Virus record (IMG/VR): IMGVR_UViG_3300045922_001096
Span: 1 to 38,213 of that record
Origin: a virus
DNA: 38,213 nt
Strand: one strand, 5' to 3'
In this document: positions 1 to 38,213 of the stretch, in pieces
Position numbering within the stretch: the first letter of the stretch is position 1
Layout of the letters: each line of letters starts with the position of its first letter
Made by a program: the position numbers and the translations under genes
Notes under the pieces: model-generated
What the model was told of the DNA's origin: nothing
Databases searched by the model: none
Seen by the model: only the letters and a program-made list of their open reading frames with translations

Positions 1-216
1 CAAACTACGTTAGCGACGACGATGATAGTTTCCGCGACAGAGCGCGCAAACGCCGCAAATCGGTTGTCTGCGCAATTGACACATGGGCTGACGGCGAAAC
101 GCTACGAGGTTGCGATAACGACGGCGCGAACCTAACGCGCCGCATTTTAGAGCGCTGGGACGTTCCAAATTCAGACATTGAGCGGATTCTGGCGCACTAT
201 TGGTCAAAACCTGATG
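1..216. repeat. Terminal redundancy of the contig, left copy
   Basis: Bases 1-216 match 37998-38213 at a constant offset of 37997. The only difference I found is G at 128 against A at 38125. The repeat lies inside the caspase-like gene, and the reading frame stays open across the join. This is the signature of a circular molecule, or circularly permuted reads, assembled past its own start. The mismatch is a synonymous third-position Ala change. Confidence 0.95.
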
Positions 217-917
217 GGCTGTTTATGCGGGTGCAGTGGCGCGATTGCGAACTACGCGTTTTGCGTAATAACTACGCTACGTGCGCCCGCGCTCGGCAGG
301 CTATGGCGTGGGTAACAAGCGGGCTAGCCAACGACGGGCGGGCGTTTTGGGGACAATCCTCGCATGGCACGCAAACGCCGTCGGATACCGAAATTGACCA
401 ACTCGACGAATGCTGGGTAATGTACGACCACGATTGGGATAAACCAATGACGTGGTTTATTGACGACATTATCGGCGACGCGCAGAAAAATCTCAAAGCG
501 GGGCAAGGGCTAAAAATCCTTTCGGATTCTTGCCACAGCGATAAAATGCTGCGTAATGCCAGTCCCTCCGCAATTTCGCGTTACCTCGTACCGCCCGCCG
601 ATTTGGTCGGCGCGCGCAAAACAGCGCGCAAAGCGTGGTTTTGGGGGAATGCCGAAACAGAGAGCGCAAACGCCGCTCTGTTGTCGGGCTGCACCGCAGA
701 CAGCGTGAGCTATACGCAGAAATACACCATCAACGGCGAAACAGTTTACGAGGGCGCGCTGACGCACGAAACTTTGCACATCGAAAACGCTGCGCCGTCG
801 CTGACCCTGCGTCAAGTGCATAGCGCTGTGTACAAAATTTTGTCGTCAAGCCGGAACAAACAGGAGCCGCAATTGGAGGGCGCCGACTGGCTTATTGACG
901 AACCGCTTTTTTTCTGA
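1..917 (+). CDS. Caspase/metacaspase-type cysteine protease (peptidase C14), 3' part; the gene starts at 37883
   Basis: Joined to 37883-38213 across the circular junction, this gives a 343-residue protein (codons here start at base 3). The N-terminal part has the family's first strand and helix pattern: SVVCAID, LRGCDNDG, then an LTRRILERW helix. The catalytic His lies in SSHGTQ (about H160). An acidic DECWVMYD stretch and FIDDII follow, matching the metacaspase S1-pocket region. The catalytic Cys lies in LSDSCHSD (about C216). The C-terminal subunit shows LLSGCTADS, then GALTHETL and QEPQLEGADWL, as in metacaspases. Cys-His proteases of this clan usually cut after Arg/Lys (metacaspase type) or Asp (caspase type). 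The position between a holin-like gene and a gp37-like gene implies late expression. Virion-protein processing, killing or lysis timing, and counter-defence are all open. The family call is strong; the role is inference. Confidence 0.93.
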   Translation, partial: NYVSDDDDSFRDRARKRRKSVVCAIDTWADGETLRGCDNDGANLTRRILERWDVPNSDIERILAHYWSKPDGLFMRVQWRDCELRVLRNNYATCARARQAMAWVTSGLANDGRAFWGQSSHGTQTPSDTEIDQLDECWVMYDHDWDKPMTWFIDDIIGDAQKNLKAGQGLKILSDSCHSDKMLRNASPSAISRYLVPPADLVGARKTARKAWFWGNAETESANAALLSGCTADSVSYTQKYTINGETVYEGALTHETLHIENAAPSLTLRQVHSAVYKILSSSRNKQEPQLEGADWLIDEPLFF

Positions 918-936
918 ACCCGCAATGGGAAACAGC

Positions 937-1260
937 ATGACTATAGAGAAAACCATTGAGCGGCTAAAATTTTTCACGGGCAAATTCTCTAGCCTCTGGG
1001 GCGTGAGAGCGGACGTAGCGGGGACGCGCATGGATTTCCTCCCGCTCGGCTACGCGCCTTTGCCCGCGCCGCGCGTTGTGTTTTCGGTTTATCAGCTGTC
1101 TAGACCATGCCAGGCGTGGCGCGTAATAGAGGAACTTTCGCTCTACGAGCGCAAAACTATGCCCGTTTGCGTGGAAATAGCCGCCGGAGACGTCCGCGAA
1201 ATTGCGGGAGTAGCGGCTGACGAAAAGCAACAGGTGTTTCTTCTTACTATGCCTACATGA
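937..1260 (+). CDS. Conserved-looking small protein of the tail connector region, function unknown
   Basis: This encodes about 107 residues. The frame is open from 895, overlapping the caspase-like gene, with possible starts at 895, 925 and 937. I prefer 937 because a weak GGGA lies about nine bases upstream and the predicted helix (TIEKTIERLKFF) begins there. Its stop overlaps the start of the gp37-like gene (ATGA at 1257), so the two are translationally coupled. In Mu-like phages this spot, just before the gp37-like gene, may hold another small connector protein. I do not recognise the family. There is no signal peptide or membrane segment. Confidence 0.6.
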   Translation: MTIEKTIERLKFFTGKFSSLWGVRADVAGTRMDFLPLGYAPLPAPRVVFSVYQLSRPCQAWRVIEELSLYERKTMPVCVEIAAGDVREIAGVAADEKQQVFLLTMPT

Positions 1261-1799
1261 TACCTATCGCCAAAATAGAAGAGGCTGTTGTGCGACGTTT
1301 GCGGGCGGCGCTCCCATTAAAAACGGTGCAGATAGAAACGTTCCCCGCCAATGCGCGAACGTTCATTGACACATTTCGCGCGGCTTCTGGAGCTCTTTTA
1401 GTACAGTATGCAGGGCGGAAACGCAAGCATACCGCCGATTACGCAGGCACGGACGTATTGACGCTTGAAATCACCGCAATCAGCCGCAACCTGCGTGGAG
1501 ACCACAGCGCAATTTACACGCTGCTGGACGCTGCGCGGTTGGCTGTTTCCGGAATGAATTTGACGGAAACCGTATCAACGGGCGACGCTGAAAATCCGAC
1601 GCAAGAGCGGCTGATTGGAGCGCGGTTTTATCTCCAGGATGAGGAATACGAGGCGTATTTAGAAAAAAACGGTCTATGGATATACAAACAAACCTACCTC
1701 AGCGACCCTATTGGCTGGATTCAGGAAGAGAGCGCGGATATTGTTATTACCGAAATCACAGTAAAATCACCCTCAGGGATTGAGGAAATCATCCCGTAA
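1257..1799 (+). CDS. Mu gp37-like tail terminator/connector protein (DUF1834 family)
   Basis: The protein has 180 residues. It opens with IAKIEEAVVRRLRAAL, the N-terminal helix pattern of the DUF1834 family (Mu gp37), followed by a mixed alpha/beta body and an acidic C-terminus. Mu gp37 lies directly upstream of the tail sheath gene and is thought to act at the tail terminus or head-tail junction. Here the gene likewise precedes a small gp38-like gene and the sheath. It overlaps the upstream gene by four bases. The call rests on the N-terminal pattern, length and order, and no catalytic motif is expected. Confidence 0.75.
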   Translation: MIPIAKIEEAVVRRLRAALPLKTVQIETFPANARTFIDTFRAASGALLVQYAGRKRKHTADYAGTDVLTLEITAISRNLRGDHSAIYTLLDAARLAVSGMNLTETVSTGDAENPTQERLIGARFYLQDEEYEAYLEKNGLWIYKQTYLSDPIGWIQEESADIVITEITVKSPSGIEEIIP

Positions 1800-1816
1800 C
1801 GAAAACGGAGTTATGT

Positions 1817-2092
1817 ATGGTAAAAAATTATCGCTATGTGGGCGAGGCGCGCATTAACGGCGTATCGCTCCGAAACGGCGCCGAAATTCTCCTGCACTAC
1901 GGCGAAACGTATGCGCTGGACGACAGCGAGACGTTTGTGCAAACGTTTTTGAAAAAACGCGATGCGAACGGTATGCCCGCGCCGTGGTTGATTGCCGTAG
2001 AGACGGGAACAGGGTATGCAGCGTCAGAGGCAGAGGAAACAAACGAATCTCACGAATTCACGAAACAGCAACCAACAAAACGGAGCAAATAA
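1817..2092 (+). CDS. Small protein upstream of tail sheath, DUF2635/Mu gp38-like position
   Basis: The protein has 91 residues. A Shine-Dalgarno CGGAG lies upstream of the ATG. The first 65 residues are a compact beta-rich segment; the last 25 are acidic and polar (EAEETNESHEF) and look disordered. In Mu a small gene (gp38, DUF2635) occupies the slot between gp37 and the sheath, so I assign it by position. The sequence match to that family is weak by eye. The stop is one base before the sheath ATG, so the genes are tightly coupled. Confidence 0.6.
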   Translation: MVKNYRYVGEARINGVSLRNGAEILLHYGETYALDDSETFVQTFLKKRDANGMPAPWLIAVETGTGYAASEAEETNESHEFTKQQPTKRSK

Positions 2093-2093
2093 T

Positions 2094-3593
2094 ATGCCGG
2101 CAACGTTTCATCACGGCGTAGAGATACAAGAGGTCAAATCGCGCACACGAACAATATCTCTCGTACAAAGCGCAATTATTGGAGTAATTGGCACCGCGCC
2201 GATTCATCATTTGCCCGCCGCGCAGCGCACGCTGAACCGCAACGTCCTTATCGCGTCCGACGCCGACAAGGCGTACTATTGCGGCGCCGACGCCGATAGC
2301 GCAGGCTATACGCTAAACCGCGATATTGAGATAATTTTCAAACAGGCGAATACGGCTGTCATCGCTATTAACGTTTTTGACCCGTCGCAGCATCGCACGC
2401 TCGGAGCGAATATCGCAACCAGCGGCAACGCGTCTCGCACCGCAAACGTTGCAACCGTTACCACTGCGGCGCCGCACGGTCTTGTAACCGGCGATTTTGT
2501 CAATCTGACCTCGTTTGCCGCCGATTTTGCGTCGTTTAATCACGATTATGTGAAAATAAACGCGCCGACAGCGACGACCATTACGTTCCCTAGCGTGGGA
2601 GCGGATATTGTCGCTGCGGCTCAGAGCGCGGGTATCGTGAAAAAAATCACCTTTACGCCGGAGGCTGTTACGGCTAGCGACATTATCGGGGCGGTGGAAT
2701 CGGACGGCAGCGTTACGGGGATGAAAGTGTGGGCGGCGGCGCGGGGGCAATTTGGGTTCAGCCCGCGTATTTTGATCGCCCCGTCGTATTCCACGCAGCA
2801 ATCAGTCGCTGCGGAAATGCGCATCATCGCCGACCAAATCCGCGCAAAGGCGATTATAGACGTCCCCGCAGGTCTTACGTATCAACAGGTACTCGAAGGG
2901 CGAGGCGTAAGCGGCACAATAAACCTCAACACCTCCAGCCCCCGCGTGGATATTTGCTACCCGCACGTGTACGGCACATCGGTCGTGGACGGCACGGAAG
3001 AATTGCACCCATTTTCGCCGTACTATGCCGGCGTTATGGCGGCTACCGACCTCGAAGAGGGGTACTGGACGCCGCCCAGCAACCGCGAGATCAGAGGCAT
3101 TACGGGCGTAGAGCGGAATATTAGTTTTGACGTGCTGAACACGAACACGGAGGCAAACAAACTCAACGCTGCGGGCGTGGTAACGATTGTCCGCGACTAC
3201 GGCACTGGTTTTCTCGTTTGGGGCGTTCGCTCTGCGGCGTTCCCTAGCAGTTCCGACCCGGATTCGTTTACGTCTGTACGCCGCACGAAGGACATTCTGC
3301 ACGATTCACTGGGCTACGGATTGCGCCCGTATTTAGGGAAACCAATGACGTTGGCAAACGTCGATTCGGCGCTCATGACCATTAACGGTTTTCTGCGAGA
3401 CCGCATTGCCGCCGGAGCGTTGATGCCGGGATCTGAGGCGAAATTCCTCCCCAGCGACAACAGCACCACACAAATGGCGCAGGGCAAAATCTGTTTTTAT
3501 CTCAATCAAATGAGTCCGATTCCAATGGAGCATATTATTCTGAAAAGCCAGGAAAATATTGATTTGCTCGAGGCTCTATACGAACTGTCCTAA
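2094..3593 (+). CDS. Tail sheath protein (P2 FI / Mu L family)
   Basis: The protein has 499 residues. The chosen start has an upstream CGGAG and gives the typical sheath N-terminus: FHHGVEIQEV, then TRTISLVQSAIIGVIGTAP, the usual opening of P2 FI-type sheaths. Later features are SPRVDICYPH, then SPYYAGVMAATDLEEGYWTPPSN and ITGVERN, matching the conserved sheath core in which subunits assemble around the tube. The C-terminus (CFYLNQMSPIPMEHIIL) matches the sheath C-terminal domain that donates strands to neighbours. The frame is open further upstream to 2016, but that extension overlaps the previous gene. This gene makes the window a contractile-tail phage. Confidence 0.95.
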   Translation: MPATFHHGVEIQEVKSRTRTISLVQSAIIGVIGTAPIHHLPAAQRTLNRNVLIASDADKAYYCGADADSAGYTLNRDIEIIFKQANTAVIAINVFDPSQHRTLGANIATSGNASRTANVATVTTAAPHGLVTGDFVNLTSFAADFASFNHDYVKINAPTATTITFPSVGADIVAAAQSAGIVKKITFTPEAVTASDIIGAVESDGSVTGMKVWAAARGQFGFSPRILIAPSYSTQQSVAAEMRIIADQIRAKAIIDVPAGLTYQQVLEGRGVSGTINLNTSSPRVDICYPHVYGTSVVDGTEELHPFSPYYAGVMAATDLEEGYWTPPSNREIRGITGVERNISFDVLNTNTEANKLNAAGVVTIVRDYGTGFLVWGVRSAAFPSSSDPDSFTSVRRTKDILHDSLGYGLRPYLGKPMTLANVDSALMTINGFLRDRIAAGALMPGSEAKFLPSDNSTTQMAQGKICFYLNQMSPIPMEHIILKSQENIDLLEALYELS

Positions 3594-11260: not shown

Positions 11261-12325
11261 TTAAAATTTCTGCATTACTGCGTCTAACCGCTCACGAATT
11301 TCATTATTATCGTAGAACGTGTAATGCCCAAGCGTAACGTCCGGCGATGAGTGGCGCATAAGCCGCATCTGGAACTCGAAAGGCAAGTGGCGAATACGGA
11401 ACTTGAACGTCGTGCGGAAATTTTTGAAACTGCGCCCGTTTTTCTCCACGCCGGCGCGTTTCATGCTCGCGTTAAGTCTGTCTGTTACGCAGGGAAGCGA
11501 TGAATGTTGCCACCGAAATACCCGCTCACGCCCTCCGGCTAACGCCAACGCTTCCCGCAACACCTCGCGCGCACGCGCGGAAATTGGCGTCGACTCAATA
11601 TTCTTCGTGATTTTATTGCGCCAATTTACAACGCCGTTTGCCAAATCCACATCGGTACATTTCAGATTCAGCGCATCCACCGGGCGCGCTCCCGTCTCGA
11701 CCATCACCCCCACTAACAGCCCCAATTCTCTGTCGCGCTCGGCGCAATCCTTGAGAATTGCGCTTACCTCCTCGTCGGTGAAAATCTGCACTTCTTTTTT
11801 GATTTCTCGCTGGCCGAACTGCGCTTTGAACTTGGTTTGCTCTAAAAACTTGCGCTCTGTGCAGAAATTCAAAAACACCTGAAACCCGCGCAAATATGTG
11901 TTAATCGTTACCGCAGAGAAATTGCGCTGCACTGCCGTGCGGTTTTTGAAGTACAGAACATCCCCCTCCAGATTGTCAAATGTCAGTACGTAGTTTTGTT
12001 TGCGCGTGATAGTATCAAACGCTAGCTTGTAATTTTTAACGGTTTTGGGCAGGAGGTTTTTACTTTGGAGAAAAAGTTCAAAGGCCTCCTGAATGCGGAT
12101 AACGCGAATTTCTTCTTTTTTCGGGAGGAATTGCCGCACGTGGAGTTCATACTGCTTTTTCTCCACCAATTTGCGATTGGCGGGGGTGTCGGCGAGCTTG
12201 GTGTAAATTTTTCGATACTTCGGTTTCCCGTTCCGGTCTATTTCGTTGTTTAGACGAATTTTCAAAACGAGTTGCCCCCGCACAACGAAAATAGAGCCGG
12301 GGAGAACATTCTTTTTACGAGCCAT
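11261..12325 (-). CDS. int: Tyrosine recombinase/integrase
   Basis: The protein has 354 residues. The N-terminal arm-binding region (about 1-75) is basic, the SAM-like core-binding domain covers about 75-170, and the catalytic domain about 180-354. Visible catalytic residues are Arg214 in TGARPVDALNL, Lys near 238-241, Arg304 in FKNFRTTF, His325 in MRHSSPDV and Tyr335 in LGHYTFYD. The usual HxxR box reads KxxR (Lys301), a tolerated substitution in some integrases. It would insert and excise the phage at the attP core just downstream. It is the last gene of the leftward lysogeny operon, seven bases after the lipoprotein gene's stop. Confidence 0.93.
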   Translation of the reverse strand: MARKKNVLPGSIFVVRGQLVLKIRLNNEIDRNGKPKYRKIYTKLADTPANRKLVEKKQYELHVRQFLPKKEEIRVIRIQEAFELFLQSKNLLPKTVKNYKLAFDTITRKQNYVLTFDNLEGDVLYFKNRTAVQRNFSAVTINTYLRGFQVFLNFCTERKFLEQTKFKAQFGQREIKKEVQIFTDEEVSAILKDCAERDRELGLLVGVMVETGARPVDALNLKCTDVDLANGVVNWRNKITKNIESTPISARAREVLREALALAGGRERVFRWQHSSLPCVTDRLNASMKRAGVEKNGRSFKNFRTTFKFRIRHLPFEFQMRLMRHSSPDVTLGHYTFYDNNEIRERLDAVMQKF

Positions 12326-12331
12326 AGTTTT

Positions 12332-12802
12332 TTACGGAGCTTTTACGGTGTCGCCGCGCTGGGTAGCGCCAAAACCGAAACGATGCACTTGTATGCCCTG
12401 AGCATTGATGAGAAACAGCGTGTCGCCCGTGTTGTTCACAAGTTGCCGTCGGTCAGAGTACAAAATACGTTGCGTCCGAGCGGGAATCGGCGAAATGGTG
12501 TCGAGTTTCCACGTCCAGTTTTTTAAGTCTTTAAGTACCCAGCCCCGCACATCCGCCGGCGCATTGCTGAAATTCCCAATGCTGAATACCTCGACGTCGG
12601 CGTTCGGGATAACCCAAACAATGCGTACATTGCTGATTGGGTTGCCCCCAGGCATTGCGTCAGGGACTTGCTGAGTAATCACACGCCCGTTTACGACAAC
12701 GGTCGCTACCGCAGGAGCTACGACGGGAGTTCCGGCGGGGGGTTCGAAGGATGTGCACGACGCAAAGAGGCATAGCGCCGCGACGAGAGTAAAAATGTGC
12801 AT
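12332..12802 (-). CDS. Lipoprotein with lamin-tail-like (LTD) domain, probable lysogenic conversion gene
   Basis: The protein has 156 residues. A short signal peptide ends in a lipobox-like FASC (Cys15), followed by a Pro/Ala/Val-rich linker. Residues about 60-150 have the lamin-tail pattern: ADVEVFSIGNFSNAPADVRG, then WVLKDL, then a PIPARTQRILYS strand and NNTGDTLFLINAQG. LTD domains occur in many bacterial secreted and lipid-anchored proteins, usually as binding modules. Lying between repressor genes and integrase, it is probably made by the prophage and placed on the cell envelope, where it could block superinfection or alter the surface. An A/T-rich TATATTTT lies just upstream and may be its own promoter. 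The role is inference. Confidence 0.7.
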   Translation of the reverse strand: MHIFTLVAALCLFASCTSFEPPAGTPVVAPAVATVVVNGRVITQQVPDAMPGGNPISNVRIVWVIPNADVEVFSIGNFSNAPADVRGWVLKDLKNWTWKLDTISPIPARTQRILYSDRRQLVNNTGDTLFLINAQGIQVHRFGFGATQRGDTVKAP

Positions 12803-16240: not shown

Positions 16241-17080
16241 ATGGCTCGACCACAGAGAAAAAACGCCGAATATTTCAGCCACGATGCGAATTTGCGCAAT
16301 GACCCGAGAATTCGGGCGTTGCGCACCCGCTTCGGGCTAACGGGTTACGCGGTGTATTGTATGCTGCTGGAAATTCTGACGGGAGCGGACGGATTTTCGG
16401 TGCAGTGGGACGAATTTTCTCAAGAAATTTATGCCGGCGACGTTGGTGTTTCTGTGGCAGAAATGCAGGATATTGTGAATTTCTGTTGCAGAATCCAGAT
16501 TCTGGCTCTCAATGCAGAAATGCTGTCGTGCGCGAAATTGACCGACAGTTTGCGCCCGCTGTTGGAAAAACGCGAGAATCTACGGCAGAAACACCGTGAA
16601 AAAACCACATTAGGCGATGTTTCTGACGCAGAAACCCACGTTTCTGACGCAGAAACCCACGTTTCTGACGCAGAAATGCCACAAAGTAAAGTAAAGTATA
16701 GTAAAGTAAAGGAAAGTAAAGTAAAGGAAAGTAGAGGAGAGGAGAGGGAGAGAGAACACACGCGCGCGCACACAACAGCGCAATCCTCTCAGCGAATCCC
16801 CGAAACGGAGCTTGCGAGACTGCAGGGGACGTGCTCTATGAGCGGCGTACCGCCGGACTTTACCGAGCGGCTGTGGAATCACTACGAGGCGACCAAGCGC
16901 ATGGACGGCTCTTGGATTGACAGCAACGGGCATATAATTTCAAACCCCGCTAAAAAAATTGTGGCGCTTTGGCAAACCGAAAGGGCAAAAACAAATGGAA
17001 ACAGCAACAGCAACGCCGCTAACGGCATACGACCACATCCAGGCAAGTACGACCAATACGACAAGTATGCCGGTCTGTGA
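16241..17080 (+). CDS. Replication initiator-type protein (Lin1244/Lin1753, DUF4373 N-terminal domain)
   Basis: The protein has 279 residues. The N-terminal domain (about 1-95) has the family signature: RKNAEYFSHDANLRNDPRIRAL, then FGLTGYAVYCMLLEIL, a winged-helix fold found in phage replication proteins of Bacteroidota and Firmicutes. Residues 127-147 are three copies of VSDAETH or near-identical, followed by Lys/Ser repeats (SKVK) and an Arg/Glu run. The DNA under these repeats looks like an origin. The C-terminal part (TERLWNHYEATKRMDGSW, then NPAKKIVALWQ) resembles the end of DnaD/O-like initiators. It is followed by a DnaC-like loader, the lambda O-P arrangement. Start chosen at 16241; the frame is open from 16190. 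Confidence 0.8.
   Translation: MARPQRKNAEYFSHDANLRNDPRIRALRTRFGLTGYAVYCMLLEILTGADGFSVQWDEFSQEIYAGDVGVSVAEMQDIVNFCCRIQILALNAEMLSCAKLTDSLRPLLEKRENLRQKHREKTTLGDVSDAETHVSDAETHVSDAEMPQSKVKYSKVKESKVKESRGEEREREHTRAHTTAQSSQRIPETELARLQGTCSMSGVPPDFTERLWNHYEATKRMDGSWIDSNGHIISNPAKKIVALWQTERAKTNGNSNSNAANGIRPHPGKYDQYDKYAGL
16449..16676. repeat. Iterons: five palindromic TTTCTGnnGCAGAAA sites inside the initiator gene
   Basis: Sites at 16449-16463 (middle TGG), 16480-16494 (TTG, last base changed), 16620-16634, 16641-16655 and 16662-16676 (all ACG). Each is an inverted repeat TTTCTG/CAGAAA around three bases. The last three are in a 21-bp tandem array, two helical turns apart. Their position in the initiator gene just before a purine-rich tract matches a lambda-type origin. 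Confidence 0.7.
16684..16757 (+). other. Purine-rich strand-asymmetric tract, candidate DNA-unwinding element
   Basis: About 74 bases composed almost only of A and G plus single T in GTAAA units: repeated AGTAAAGTAAAG, then GAGGAGAGG and GAGAGAGA. A CACACGCGCGCGCACACA alternating run follows. In lambda the origin iterons in gene O are followed by a similar A/T-rich, purine-biased tract that melts first. No other tract like it exists in the window. Confidence 0.6.
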
Positions 17081-25872: not shown

Positions 25873-25945
25873 CATTTCCCCAGCTATATCGCTATATTCG
25901 CATTGAATTACCGCTATCCCTCCAAAAAATACGTTGTTACGCACA

Positions 25946-27199
25946 ATGGCGTATCCATTTCTAAAAATATTCCTCGCCGGCAGGCATCGCACAGCCCACC
26001 CCAAAAAACAGTGGGACGATTCCGATATTGATAAAATCCTCGCTAGCACCCTTGCCGGCAGCGAGGACAAAATTCCGTTTACGGCACAACTGCCAAACGG
26101 TAAACATCCACGCGGGAATCTCCCTGTGTACGGATTAGCGAACAAAAACACGCTGCGCAAAACCACCGTAAACGGCGTAACGGCGCTCGAAATTCAGCCG
26201 TGCGATTTTGCGGAGGGATTGCTGGATGCGCTCAGAGGCGAGGGGTTGGACAAGATGAGCGTGCGCCTGAACGGTTCGGATTTCTCGCTAGAGCATATTT
26301 GTTTTGTTGCCAACCCCGCCGTGCAGGGGATTCCCGCTATTAGCGATTATGATTTTTCCGCGTCGGACGGCGGCAACTGGATTGACCTCAGTTCAGGCGC
26401 AAGCGCCGCCGATTTTGCAGATTCGCGGATGTCCATTGTCGGCAAAGCGTTGCGGAGTTTGCGCGATTGGATTATCGGCGAAAAAGGGATAGACGTTGCC
26501 AATACCGTGCTGCCGGACTACGGTTTGGACGAACTAAAAGAATGGCAACCGGAATTGCCGGATTGGGCGCGGGAGCAAATTAACGACGTTCTCATGCGCG
26601 TGCGCGCGTTGGAGGAACGAACAGGCATACAACAACCGAAAATCATTTCCGATTACAACTTTAACGAGGACGCAATGAAAGAACTCGATGAACTAAAAGC
26701 CGATTTTTCGGCATTTCGAGAGTCTGCCGCGAAAAACGAGGCGGCTATAAAAGCGGAGAACGAGGCTCTCCGCAAAGCAAACGAGGCGCTTTTGAAAACC
26801 GTGAGCGAGATGCGAGAGACGGGTATCAACCGCGACAACGCGGATTTTATTGACGCGCTGGTGCGCGAGGGCAAAATTCTCCCCGCCGAGCGCGATTTGC
26901 AGCTGCTAGAATTAAACATGGCGGCGAAAACAGAGGGGAAAATCAATTTTTCCGGCGTTGAAAAAGATATGCTCACGGCAAAGCGGGAACTTCTGGCCGC
27001 GCGCCCCGTCATTGCGCCGCTTGGCAAGCCCATCGCTACCAAAAGCGCCGCAAGCAGCGGGAGGGCGGATTTTAGCATGGACACCTACGAGGAGCAAGTA
27101 AGGCTGCGCAAAGCGGCGGAAAAGCTAGCGCGAGAGCAAAATATTGATTTTGGCTCGGCGCTCAACATTTTGTTAGACGACCAAAAATATGGAGAGTAA
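25946..27199 (+). CDS. Prohead protease/scaffold, Mu gpI-like
   Basis: The protein has 417 residues from the ATG at 25946; an in-frame TTG at 25934 is possible. The N-terminal half has the layout of Mu gpI-type prohead proteases, ending in FSLEHICFVANPAVQGIPAI, close to the TNNPA/TNxPA region of that family. The catalytic residues are not obvious by eye. Residues about 240-300 are a long coiled coil (ELDELKADFSAFRESAAKNEA, then ALRKANEALLKTVSEMRE), the scaffold part. The C-terminus carries SMDTYEEQVRLRKAAEKLAREQ. The gene directly precedes the major capsid gene, four bases apart. Confidence 0.75.
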   Translation: MAYPFLKIFLAGRHRTAHPKKQWDDSDIDKILASTLAGSEDKIPFTAQLPNGKHPRGNLPVYGLANKNTLRKTTVNGVTALEIQPCDFAEGLLDALRGEGLDKMSVRLNGSDFSLEHICFVANPAVQGIPAISDYDFSASDGGNWIDLSSGASAADFADSRMSIVGKALRSLRDWIIGEKGIDVANTVLPDYGLDELKEWQPELPDWAREQINDVLMRVRALEERTGIQQPKIISDYNFNEDAMKELDELKADFSAFRESAAKNEAAIKAENEALRKANEALLKTVSEMRETGINRDNADFIDALVREGKILPAERDLQLLELNMAAKTEGKINFSGVEKDMLTAKRELLAARPVIAPLGKPIATKSAASSGRADFSMDTYEEQVRLRKAAEKLAREQNIDFGSALNILLDDQKYGE

Positions 27200-36394: not shown

Positions 36395-36670
36395 ATGGAA
36401 AACTCTTTGCTTATCGGCGCTCTGATTATGGCGGTAACGTCGTTTTTACCTCTGGCGGGCGTGCTCATTCGCACCGGCGGGCTTGTTCACACCGTTATGC
36501 AGTTAGAGTAAAAAATCGGGAAACTAGAAAACAACCTGCAATCGCGAATAAAAAATAACGACAATTGGCGCGAAACGCTGCTGATGCGTATCAGCGCAAT
36601 GAACGAAAATATCAAAATTATCGAAACAAAACTACAATTACTAGAGACGCAGCGCTCGCAACATCAATGA
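36395..36670 (+). pseudogene. TM plus coiled-coil lysis gene interrupted by TAA (i-spanin/holin-like)
   Basis: The first 38 codons (36395-36508) encode a membrane segment (LLIGALIMAVTSFLPLAGVLI), then TAA at 36509-36511. The same frame then stays open for 52 codons to TGA 36668-36670, encoding KIGKLENNLQSRIKNNDNWRETLLMRISAM and a second amphipathic helix, a clear coiled coil. The final TGA overlaps the amidase ATG (ATGA), as in a real coupled gene. A CAA to TAA change would explain the break. Full-length, 91 residues, TM then coiled coil resembles an Rz-type inner spanin, or a small holin partner. Readthrough, a fresh mutation or a sequence error are all possible. Confidence 0.7.
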
Positions 36671-37302
36671 TTCTCGTGCAAAAATATCGCCTGCCGCAAA
36701 CGCAACTGCTTCCACAAAACGGGAAATTGCGCCGCATCGTACTCCACCATACCGCCGGAGCGAGCGCAAAATCCACGTTTGATTATTGGGCGTCAACGCC
36801 GGAGCGCGTCGGAACGGCGTATATGATTGAGCGAGACGGCACAATTTACGAGACGTTCGACCCGGCAAAATACTGGTGTTACCACATCGGTTCGGGCAGC
36901 AATAATCGGGATAACGCCGAGAGCGTTGGCATAGAATTGTGCAGCGCCGGAGGCTTGAAAAAACGCGACGGCAAATACTATGCGTTTGGCGTGTATTCTC
37001 CCAAAACAGAGGTAAACGCGGCAGACGTTTTTGATAATGGAACGCTATATCGTGGATTTCAGTATTTCGCTCGCTACACCGATGCGCAAATCGCGTCGGC
37101 GCTCGAATTGATTGAAAAACTGCTCGAAACCTATCCGACTATTGAGCGCAAAACCCCGAAAAATCATACAGCGTACTACAACGATTGGAAAAATTTTGGC
37201 GGCGTCGTCTCGCACACCCATCTCCGCGCAGATAAAAGCGACGTTCACCCCGGATTCCCGTGGGAGCGGCTGATTCAAAACAGTAATTTACAAGTTTTTT
37301 AA
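36667..37302 (+). CDS. Endolysin: N-acetylmuramoyl-L-alanine amidase (Amidase_2)
   Basis: The protein has 211 residues. The Amidase_2/T7 lysozyme fold is visible: LRRIVLHHTAGA (zinc His27/28), then VGTAYMIERDGTIYETFDPAKYWCYHIG, then AESVGIELCS, then a late VSHTHLRADKSDVHPGFPW with the second His ligand and the third ligand near 192-194. It hydrolyses the bond between N-acetylmuramic acid and L-alanine in peptidoglycan. The start at 36667 is chosen because it overlaps the stop of the upstream gene; the frame is open to 36565, inside that gene's coiled coil. Confidence 0.92.
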   Translation: MILVQKYRLPQTQLLPQNGKLRRIVLHHTAGASAKSTFDYWASTPERVGTAYMIERDGTIYETFDPAKYWCYHIGSGSNNRDNAESVGIELCSAGGLKKRDGKYYAFGVYSPKTEVNAADVFDNGTLYRGFQYFARYTDAQIASALELIEKLLETYPTIERKTPKNHTAYYNDWKNFGGVVSHTHLRADKSDVHPGFPWERLIQNSNLQVF

Positions 37303-37324: not shown

Positions 37325-37585
37325 ATGCCAGAAACAACGCAAAATCAATACGGAATCGAATCGCTGGAATCATTGGCGAAGGCGATTGTCAGCTCAATTA
37401 AGGTCAGTTTAGACGGGTTTGGGCTGGACGATTTAGGCGTTCACATTAAAACAGCGACCACTATTGCCAGCCAGTGGCGCGAGGCAAAAAATGAAATCAG
37501 CGATTTGAGCGCCTCTGAGGCGTTGCGTCTGAATGAAGCGCTCTCGCGCGAAATCCGCGTGCAAATTTTTAACGATACAAATTAA
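37325..37585 (+). CDS. Small protein of the lysis region, function unknown
   Basis: The protein has 86 residues. It starts with a polar N-terminus (PETTQNQYGIESLESLAKAIVSSIKVSL), then two helical segments (IKTATTIASQWREAKNEISDL, then EALRLNEALSREIRVQIF). No signal peptide or membrane segment. A GGGATACTACC precedes the ATG. It is located between amidase and a holin-like gene; similar small helical proteins occur in this place in phages of Bacteroidota, but I know no function. Confidence 0.6.
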   Translation: MPETTQNQYGIESLESLAKAIVSSIKVSLDGFGLDDLGVHIKTATTIASQWREAKNEISDLSASEALRLNEALSREIRVQIFNDTN

Positions 37586-37601: not shown

Positions 37602-37886
37602 ATGAAACTCCCATCAATAAAACTTGTTGCGTTGGCTTTCGTTGCTAATATCGCGCCGCTGGCTACGGGTATCGTCCAGATTTTGTTAGGGAACATACCG
37701 ACAGGGATAGGAGCGATAGCGGGCGGTATTGGCGCAATGGCTGCGCAGGTTATGAACGCGCAGGCGGAAGCGCAGCAAACGCGGTCGCAGATCACAGTGG
37801 CGTGGTTCTTTTCGCGGGTGTATGTTTGGCTGACCATCGCAATTGGTATCGTTGTTTTGCTCGTCCTATTTGGGAAATATCTATGA
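37602..37886 (+). CDS. Holin-like membrane protein
   Basis: The protein has 94 residues from the ATG at 37602; the frame is open from 37533. Two membrane segments are seen: about 8-48 (LVALAFVANIAPLATGIVQILLG, followed by a Gly/Ile/Ala-rich GIGAIAGGIGAMAA) and about 67-91 (WFFSRVYVWLTIAIGIVVLLVLFG). A polar linker with QAEAQQTRSQ joins them. Size, membrane topology and place next to the amidase fit a class II-type holin. The stop overlaps the start of the caspase-like gene (ATGA at 37883), so translation of the two is coupled. Confidence 0.75.
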   Translation: MKLPSIKLVALAFVANIAPLATGIVQILLGNIPTGIGAIAGGIGAMAAQVMNAQAEAQQTRSQITVAWFFSRVYVWLTIAIGIVVLLVLFGKYL

Positions 37887-38213
37887 GTAACATTCTTTGC
37901 GCGGCTTGGCGCGCTCTCAAAAATGCGTTGAAATTGCGGAGCGTATTAACCGATGAACCTGCGCCGAGCAGCCCCGCGATTATTGAGAATAAACTCCCAA
38001 ACTACGTTAGCGACGACGATGATAGTTTCCGCGACAGAGCGCGCAAACGCCGCAAATCGGTTGTCTGCGCAATTGACACATGGGCTGACGGCGAAACGCT
38101 ACGAGGTTGCGATAACGACGGCGCAAACCTAACGCGCCGCATTTTAGAGCGCTGGGACGTTCCAAATTCAGACATTGAGCGGATTCTGGCGCACTATTGG
38201 TCAAAACCTGATG
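37883..38213 (+). CDS. Caspase/metacaspase-type protease, 5' part; continues at base 217
   Basis: The ATG at 37883 overlaps the holin-like stop (ATGA). The first 60 residues are a polar N-terminal extension with an acidic patch (SDDDD) and a basic run (DRARKRRKS), a possible cleavable or targeting segment. The first core strand of the C14 fold (SVVCAIDTW) begins near residue 60, followed by LRGCDNDG and a helix. The frame runs without a break into base 217 of the window, because bases 1-216 repeat this segment. Catalytic residues lie in the other part (see the entry for 1-917). The full protein has 343 residues. Confidence 0.9.
   Translation, partial: MSNILCAAWRALKNALKLRSVLTDEPAPSSPAIIENKLPNYVSDDDDSFRDRARKRRKSVVCAIDTWADGETLRGCDNDGANLTRRILERWDVPNSDIERILAHYWSKPD
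37998..38213. repeat. Terminal redundancy of the contig, right copy
   Basis: Matches bases 1-216 with one difference (A at 38125, G at 128), synonymous in the caspase-like gene. Removing one copy gives a circular unit of 37,997 bp. Confidence 0.95.

Follow-up and report, generated by a model that had tools for sequence, protein, structure and literature searches.

The Locus

The window, the whole 38,213-nucleotide stretch of viral DNA analyzed here, begins and ends with the same 216 bp: positions 1–216 repeat positions 37,998–38,213 except for a single base (G versus A at window position 128). Such terminal redundancy points to an assembly that is circular or circularly permuted and was cut inside a gene for a caspase-type protease. 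When the ends are joined, the 5′ part of this gene (37,883–38,213, + strand), which supplies the ATG start and residues 1–110, continues into the 3′ part (217–917, + strand), which supplies residues 111–343 and the stop codon, giving one unbroken 343-residue frame. A preliminary description of this DNA had joined the same frame and listed in it SSHGTQ (H160), LSDSCHSD (C216), and further motifs, all of which are present. An assembly artefact at the contig ends is ruled out because three other IMG/VR contigs (L003, L004, and L005) carry the gene uninterrupted, encoding proteins that are 95–98% identical. Only the first 39 residues depend on the join; the whole protease domain, on which PF00656 is detected, falls within window positions 3–917.

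The genes around the caspase lie on one strand in the order amidase, 86-residue protein, 94-residue transmembrane (TM) protein, caspase, 121-residue protein, and tail module, and the order around the caspase is identical in L003. The first gene encodes an endolysin, an N-acetylmuramoyl-L-alanine amidase (Amidase_2; 36,565–37,302, +; PF01510, E = 3.3e-14; phrog_1794 amidase, E = 3.7e-17). It is followed by a gene for a soluble 86-residue protein with no convincing family (37,325–37,585, +) and by one for a 94-residue protein with two hydrophobic segments (37,602–37,886, +), which gave no match in family searches and is called holin-like by its size, hydrophobicity, and place only. The successive gaps from the amidase to the caspase are 22, 16, and −4 nt, the last being an overlap of the caspase start codon with the stop of the TM gene. 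A simple promoter scan upstream of the caspase found four sigma-70-like sites, no excess over the 2.8 ± 1.6 in shuffles. On the other side, a gene for a 121-residue protein with no convincing family (895–1260, +) overlaps the end of the caspase gene, and tail genes (1257–3593), including a tail sheath gene, follow directly, starting with a Gp37-family gene (1257–1799, +; PF09646, E = 2.3e-11). These neighbors, an endolysin and a holin-like gene before the caspase and a tail module after it, support the late-operon setting given in the preliminary description.

Several other features of the phage were recorded. A 90-residue frame with a TM segment and a coiled coil upstream of the amidase (36,395–36,667) is interrupted by an in-frame stop in the window but intact in L003 (3847–4119); as read here, the window copy is broken or variable. 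The phage has a large terminase gene and an integrase-like gene (11,261–12,325), the latter named by sequence judgment only. A gene for a 156-residue lipoprotein-like protein (12,332–12,802, −) stands beside the integrase-like gene and a repressor-like gene and is a possible lysogenic-conversion gene. A perfect 21-bp tandem repeat of 2.8 copies (16,619–16,676) lies in frame within a gene for a 296-residue protein, where it encodes the seven-residue repeat VSDAETH. Relatives of the capsid protein were found at 24–35% identity in Bacteroidota genomes (14 of 396) and at 25–32% identity in proteobacterial phages.

A Metacaspase-Type Cysteine Protease

The product of the joined gene is a tailed-phage cysteine protease of metacaspase type (C14B-like, orthocaspase-like), compact and with a single domain. 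Two checks on this assignment had been named beforehand, a search of the protein against a C14 profile and a comparison of its predicted structure with metacaspases. The profile search gives a match to PF00656 (Peptidase_C14) of 39.6 bits, above the cutoff of 21.4 (E = 6e-10). The best sequence matches in the PDB are metacaspases: Yca1 (1.6e-5), Candida metacaspase-1, Geobacter GSU0716, and plant MC4 and MC9. An AlphaFold2 model computed from a 41-sequence alignment has a mean pLDDT of 81 and a pTM of 0.81, with very low confidence limited to the N-terminus and two stretches between residues 185 and 220. Its best Foldseek matches (AtMC9, Geobacter GSU0716, AtMC4, Candida metacaspase, and Yca1) are likewise those of a metacaspase fold. 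Searches of PHROGs and NCBIfam returned no convincing family for the protein, and a 16-member alignment of the caspases contained no stretch conserved enough for scanning.

The catalytic residues and the substrate pocket are intact. In the translation of window positions 3–914, H121 and C177 correspond to H160 and C216 of the 343-residue protein. The codons of this pair (363–365 and 531–533, both +) lie in the motifs SSHG and DSCHS; all 41 phage proteins have both residues, which also line up with the catalytic His and Cys of metacaspases of known structure. In TbMCA2, Cys92, Asp95, Ser156, and Asp211 have been tied to substrate binding or activity (PMC4357240). Their counterparts in the window protein (3–914 numbering) are C37, D40, S119, and D175, matched by spacing: the Cys and Asp are three apart, the Ser is two before the catalytic His, and the Asp is two before the catalytic Cys. 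The first two belong to a CDND motif (111–122, +), of which the terminal redundancy holds a second copy within 37,998–38,213. All four S1 residues are invariant in the 41 aligned phage proteins. The residue after which metacaspases cleave is Arg or Lys (PMC4357240). Given that the catalytic dyad and the complete metacaspase S1 pocket are conserved without exception in the 41 proteins, the window protein is predicted to be specific for Arg or Lys at P1 and is likely to be active as a protease.

The calcium site is kept in part. TbMCA2 binds Ca2+ through four conserved Asp residues, 173, 189, 190, and 220 (PMC4357240). By alignment, D135, D154, and D155 of the window protein (region 405–467, +) correspond to Asp173, Asp189, and Asp190, and the fourth ligand, Asp220, is replaced by Arg184 (codon 552–554). 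Gating by Ca2+ is doubtful because 35 of the 41 phage proteins carry Arg or Lys at this position. Type II metacaspases are defined by an insertion of ∼70 residues after the catalytic Cys that carries an Arg/Lys self-processing site; the low-confidence loop at 185–220 contains Arg and Lys and is shorter than that insertion.

Values of dN/dS between the window caspase and its relatives are 0.12–0.29, which places the protein under purifying selection; one near-identical pair gave 0.58, a value that says little because its members are three substitutions apart. The preliminary claim of a C14 metacaspase-type protease with an intact His–Cys dyad is therefore borne out by sequence, fold, conservation across 41 proteins, and dN/dS. 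The possibility that an amphipathic helix at the N-terminus targets the protein to membranes was also considered and dropped, since the hydrophobic moment of the window protein did not stand out from shuffles (p = 0.11).

Relatives on Other Viral Contigs

A detectable relative of the caspase was found in 1 of 50,697 phage records, the 485-kb LR745208, which carries no annotation. In alignment-based scans of IMG/VR, about 40 distinct contigs of 10 to 485 kb carry C14 proteins, which appear not to have been described previously. A large-terminase profile matches 15 of 35 tested caspase-carrying records, which is weak support for a viral origin because the same profile matches most bacterial control genomes; for the remaining records, viral status was taken from IMG/VR. 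QTSADA is a common stretch in the phage relatives, and the window protein has DSVSYTQ in its place.

A maximum-likelihood tree places 39 phage proteins in a single group that takes in just two non-phage rows, and the phage/non-phage label changes twice, compared to 13.3 times in shuffles. This grouping is biased, since the sequences were collected by mutual similarity with only a small number of cellular ones among them. The sister of the window caspase is the protein of L009 (support 98/93). Most phage caspases are compact and single-domain, at about 240–370 residues, compared to 480–1180 residues for most of the cellular relatives found. These data bear on whether the gene is a passenger, captured recently from a bacterium and without a role for the phage. 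In its favor, C14 genes are common in bacteria; however, the low dN/dS, the clustering of the phage proteins, and their compactness relative to most cellular relatives all speak against it, and we consider it very improbable.

Individual relatives show features of their own. A single TM segment is predicted at the C-terminus of the caspases of L014, L015, L034, L035, L036, and L043 and at the N-terminus of that of L037, which suggests that these proteins may be membrane-anchored. The caspase of L012 (4801–6795) has an intein-like insertion (CFAGDTRV...VHN, with an HNH-like stretch) right after the catalytic SGHG, an assignment made solely from the sequence. The terminase matches in the L037 (47 kb) and L043 (385 kb) records contain in-frame TAG or TAA codons, possibly reflecting stop-codon recoding or interruption. 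On a Rhizobium plasmid (L082, 3869–6709), a gene annotated "lysozyme" lies between caspase-family genes, a cellular caspase–lysozyme neighborhood.

Association with Lysis Genes

The window caspase is positioned beside lysis genes, the amidase identified by PF01510 and the other neighbor being holin-like only, and the sister caspase of L009 also occupies a tail–lysis region, with an amidase endolysin (PF01510, 1.5e-20) two genes downstream. Similar placements recur in other lineages. An M15 peptidase endolysin (4.4e-15) lies two genes upstream of the caspase in L022, a phage lysozyme gene (1.2e-11) overlaps it in L046, a phrog holin gene overlaps it in L041, and a small TM gene overlaps its start in L017. 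Three hydrolase families were searched and only records with an over-cutoff match were counted; on that basis, such a hydrolase lies ∼1.5 kb or less, center to center, from the caspase in four of four records below 60 kb (combined p = 0.003), the distance over all eight records, with the addition of four larger ones in which the hydrolase is mostly remote, gives p = 0.018, and small TM genes are enriched 1.6- to 2-fold around all 40 caspases (p 0.01–0.04), values that are suggestive only because the tests were post hoc, made after the pattern had been seen, and used simple gene calls. Many copies in large phages are not beside lysis genes: the caspase and the detected hydrolase are about 124 kb apart in LR745208, 170 kb apart in the 385-kb contig, and 39 kb apart in a 92-kb contig. 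The overall enrichment of caspases near lysis genes is modest. The lysis end of late operons is also a common place for accessory genes, so adjacency alone is not proof of function.

Proposed Role and Alternatives

The best explanation, to which we give about an even chance, is that the protein is a late, lysis-coupled, Arg/Lys-specific metacaspase that acts on host or lysis proteins. We infer both late expression and a role at lysis. The caspase would be a late product of what appears to be a single operon shared with the endolysin and the holin-like protein. At host lysis or shortly beforehand, it would most likely cleave proteins on the C-terminal side of Arg or Lys. Such cleavage would inactivate or process host or lysis proteins, and the cell could thereby be dismantled or opened more completely. 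A possible trigger would be Ca2+ entering once the membrane is holed, which is doubtful with Arg or Lys in place of the fourth ligand in most of the phage proteins. A broader proposal, that several tailed-phage lineages use a metacaspase coupled to the holin gene, activated as the membrane fails and cutting host or lysis proteins, is put forward tentatively and is rather unlikely as it stands.

The preliminary description had offered three roles: dismantling of the host cell, processing of a virion protein, and cutting of a defense protein. Dismantling at the time of lysis fits best because the gene overlaps the holin-like gene behind the endolysin and because the sister and several other lineages have a similar kind of neighborhood. 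A role in processing virion proteins, or as a virion-borne protease that is injected, would be in keeping with the tail genes that directly follow the caspase region and with the tail-like genes after the caspase of L012. However, head maturation in this phage has a protease of its own (25,934–27,199, +; phrog_976, E = 4.6e-27), which makes capsid processing unlikely, and the caspase of the window group comes last in the lysis module. A virion role is accordingly judged quite improbable.

The third role, a counter-defense protease that cuts a host immune protein during infection, is less favored. Counter-defense genes are usually early, whereas this one follows the endolysin gene among genes for lysis, and nothing in its context points to an immune target. 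Proteases can inactivate host factors, and the purifying selection and conserved active site imply that activity matters, which would suit a counter-defense function; we nevertheless rate it as a poor candidate.

The main rival to a lysis-coupled metacaspase is accessory cargo, a moron or a defense effector (abortive infection against other phages) with no part in the phage's own lysis. Bacterial C14 proteases are known defense effectors, and the position of the gene in the window is typical for cargo. On two viral contigs, L053 (7578–8654) and L080 (811–2200), a C14 gene adjoins a gene for a ThsB-type TIR protein (PF08937), and one of these pairs lies ∼1.5 kb from a gene that we judge from its sequence to be lysozyme-like; the two are probably TIR–caspase defense modules carried by phages or prophages. 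These pairs differ from the window gene, however. They form a separate clade in the tree (97/94), and with the PADLOC caspase model they reach 74 bits and lysis-region relatives 40–59 bits, whereas the model has no match to the window protein at E ≤ 0.01. Among the neighboring genes that were read and profile-scanned, no TIR-like protein or other sensor was seen beside the window caspase. The gene is not expected to be expressed on its own in a lysogen, because it overlaps its upstream neighbor and the promoter scan shows no excess over shuffles. Cargo is thus unlikely, although it ranks first among the alternatives.

Comparison with Known C14 Systems

Known settings of caspase-type proteases include cell death, bacterial anti-phage defense, and viruses of eukaryotes. 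Our searches place C14 proteins with an invariant active site on about 40 viral contigs, compared to the single phage record in which a relative was otherwise detected. If some phage caspases act in lysis, the fold of a death protease would have been taken to the phage side and phage lysis would gain a proteolytic step; a phage metacaspase as an execution step of lysis would then be a viral counterpart to caspase-driven cell death. The preliminary statement that no phage caspase of lysis or assembly is well described held in the literature and in a viral fold library. A search of the open-access literature (by titles, abstracts, and term matches) turned up no account of a caspase within a phage lysis module, and in the viral structure library the 24 proteins that match the model at E ≤ 0.001 all come from viruses of eukaryotes and none from a phage. 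Among virus-encoded C14 proteins, the metacaspases of giant viruses (Fadolivirus, Clandestinovirus, and others) match the window protein in fold; unlike the window phage, those viruses have eukaryotic hosts.

Thoeris-type TIR–caspase pairs, which combine a ThsB TIR protein with a caspase-like protease, have a C14 protease in common with the window gene. The window gene was rejected as a module of this type because no TIR gene was seen among the neighbors read and scanned, it belongs to another clade, and it gives no PADLOC caspase match. Bacterial orthocaspases and "caspase family proteins" (GSU0716 and those of Nostoc, Rhizobium, Deinococcus, and Bacteroidota) have the same C14 domain motifs; they are encoded on chromosomes or plasmids and are mostly long, whereas the phage proteins are compact and stand alone. 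With type I and type II metacaspases (Yca1, TbMCA2, AtMC4, and AtMC9; MEROPS C14B), the window protein shares the fold, the His–Cys dyad, and the Cys/Asp/Ser/Asp set of the S1 pocket. It differs from them in being encoded by a phage, in its sequence, which is about 18–20% identical to theirs, in having Arg in place of the fourth Ca2+ ligand, and in carrying an N-terminal extension of its own.
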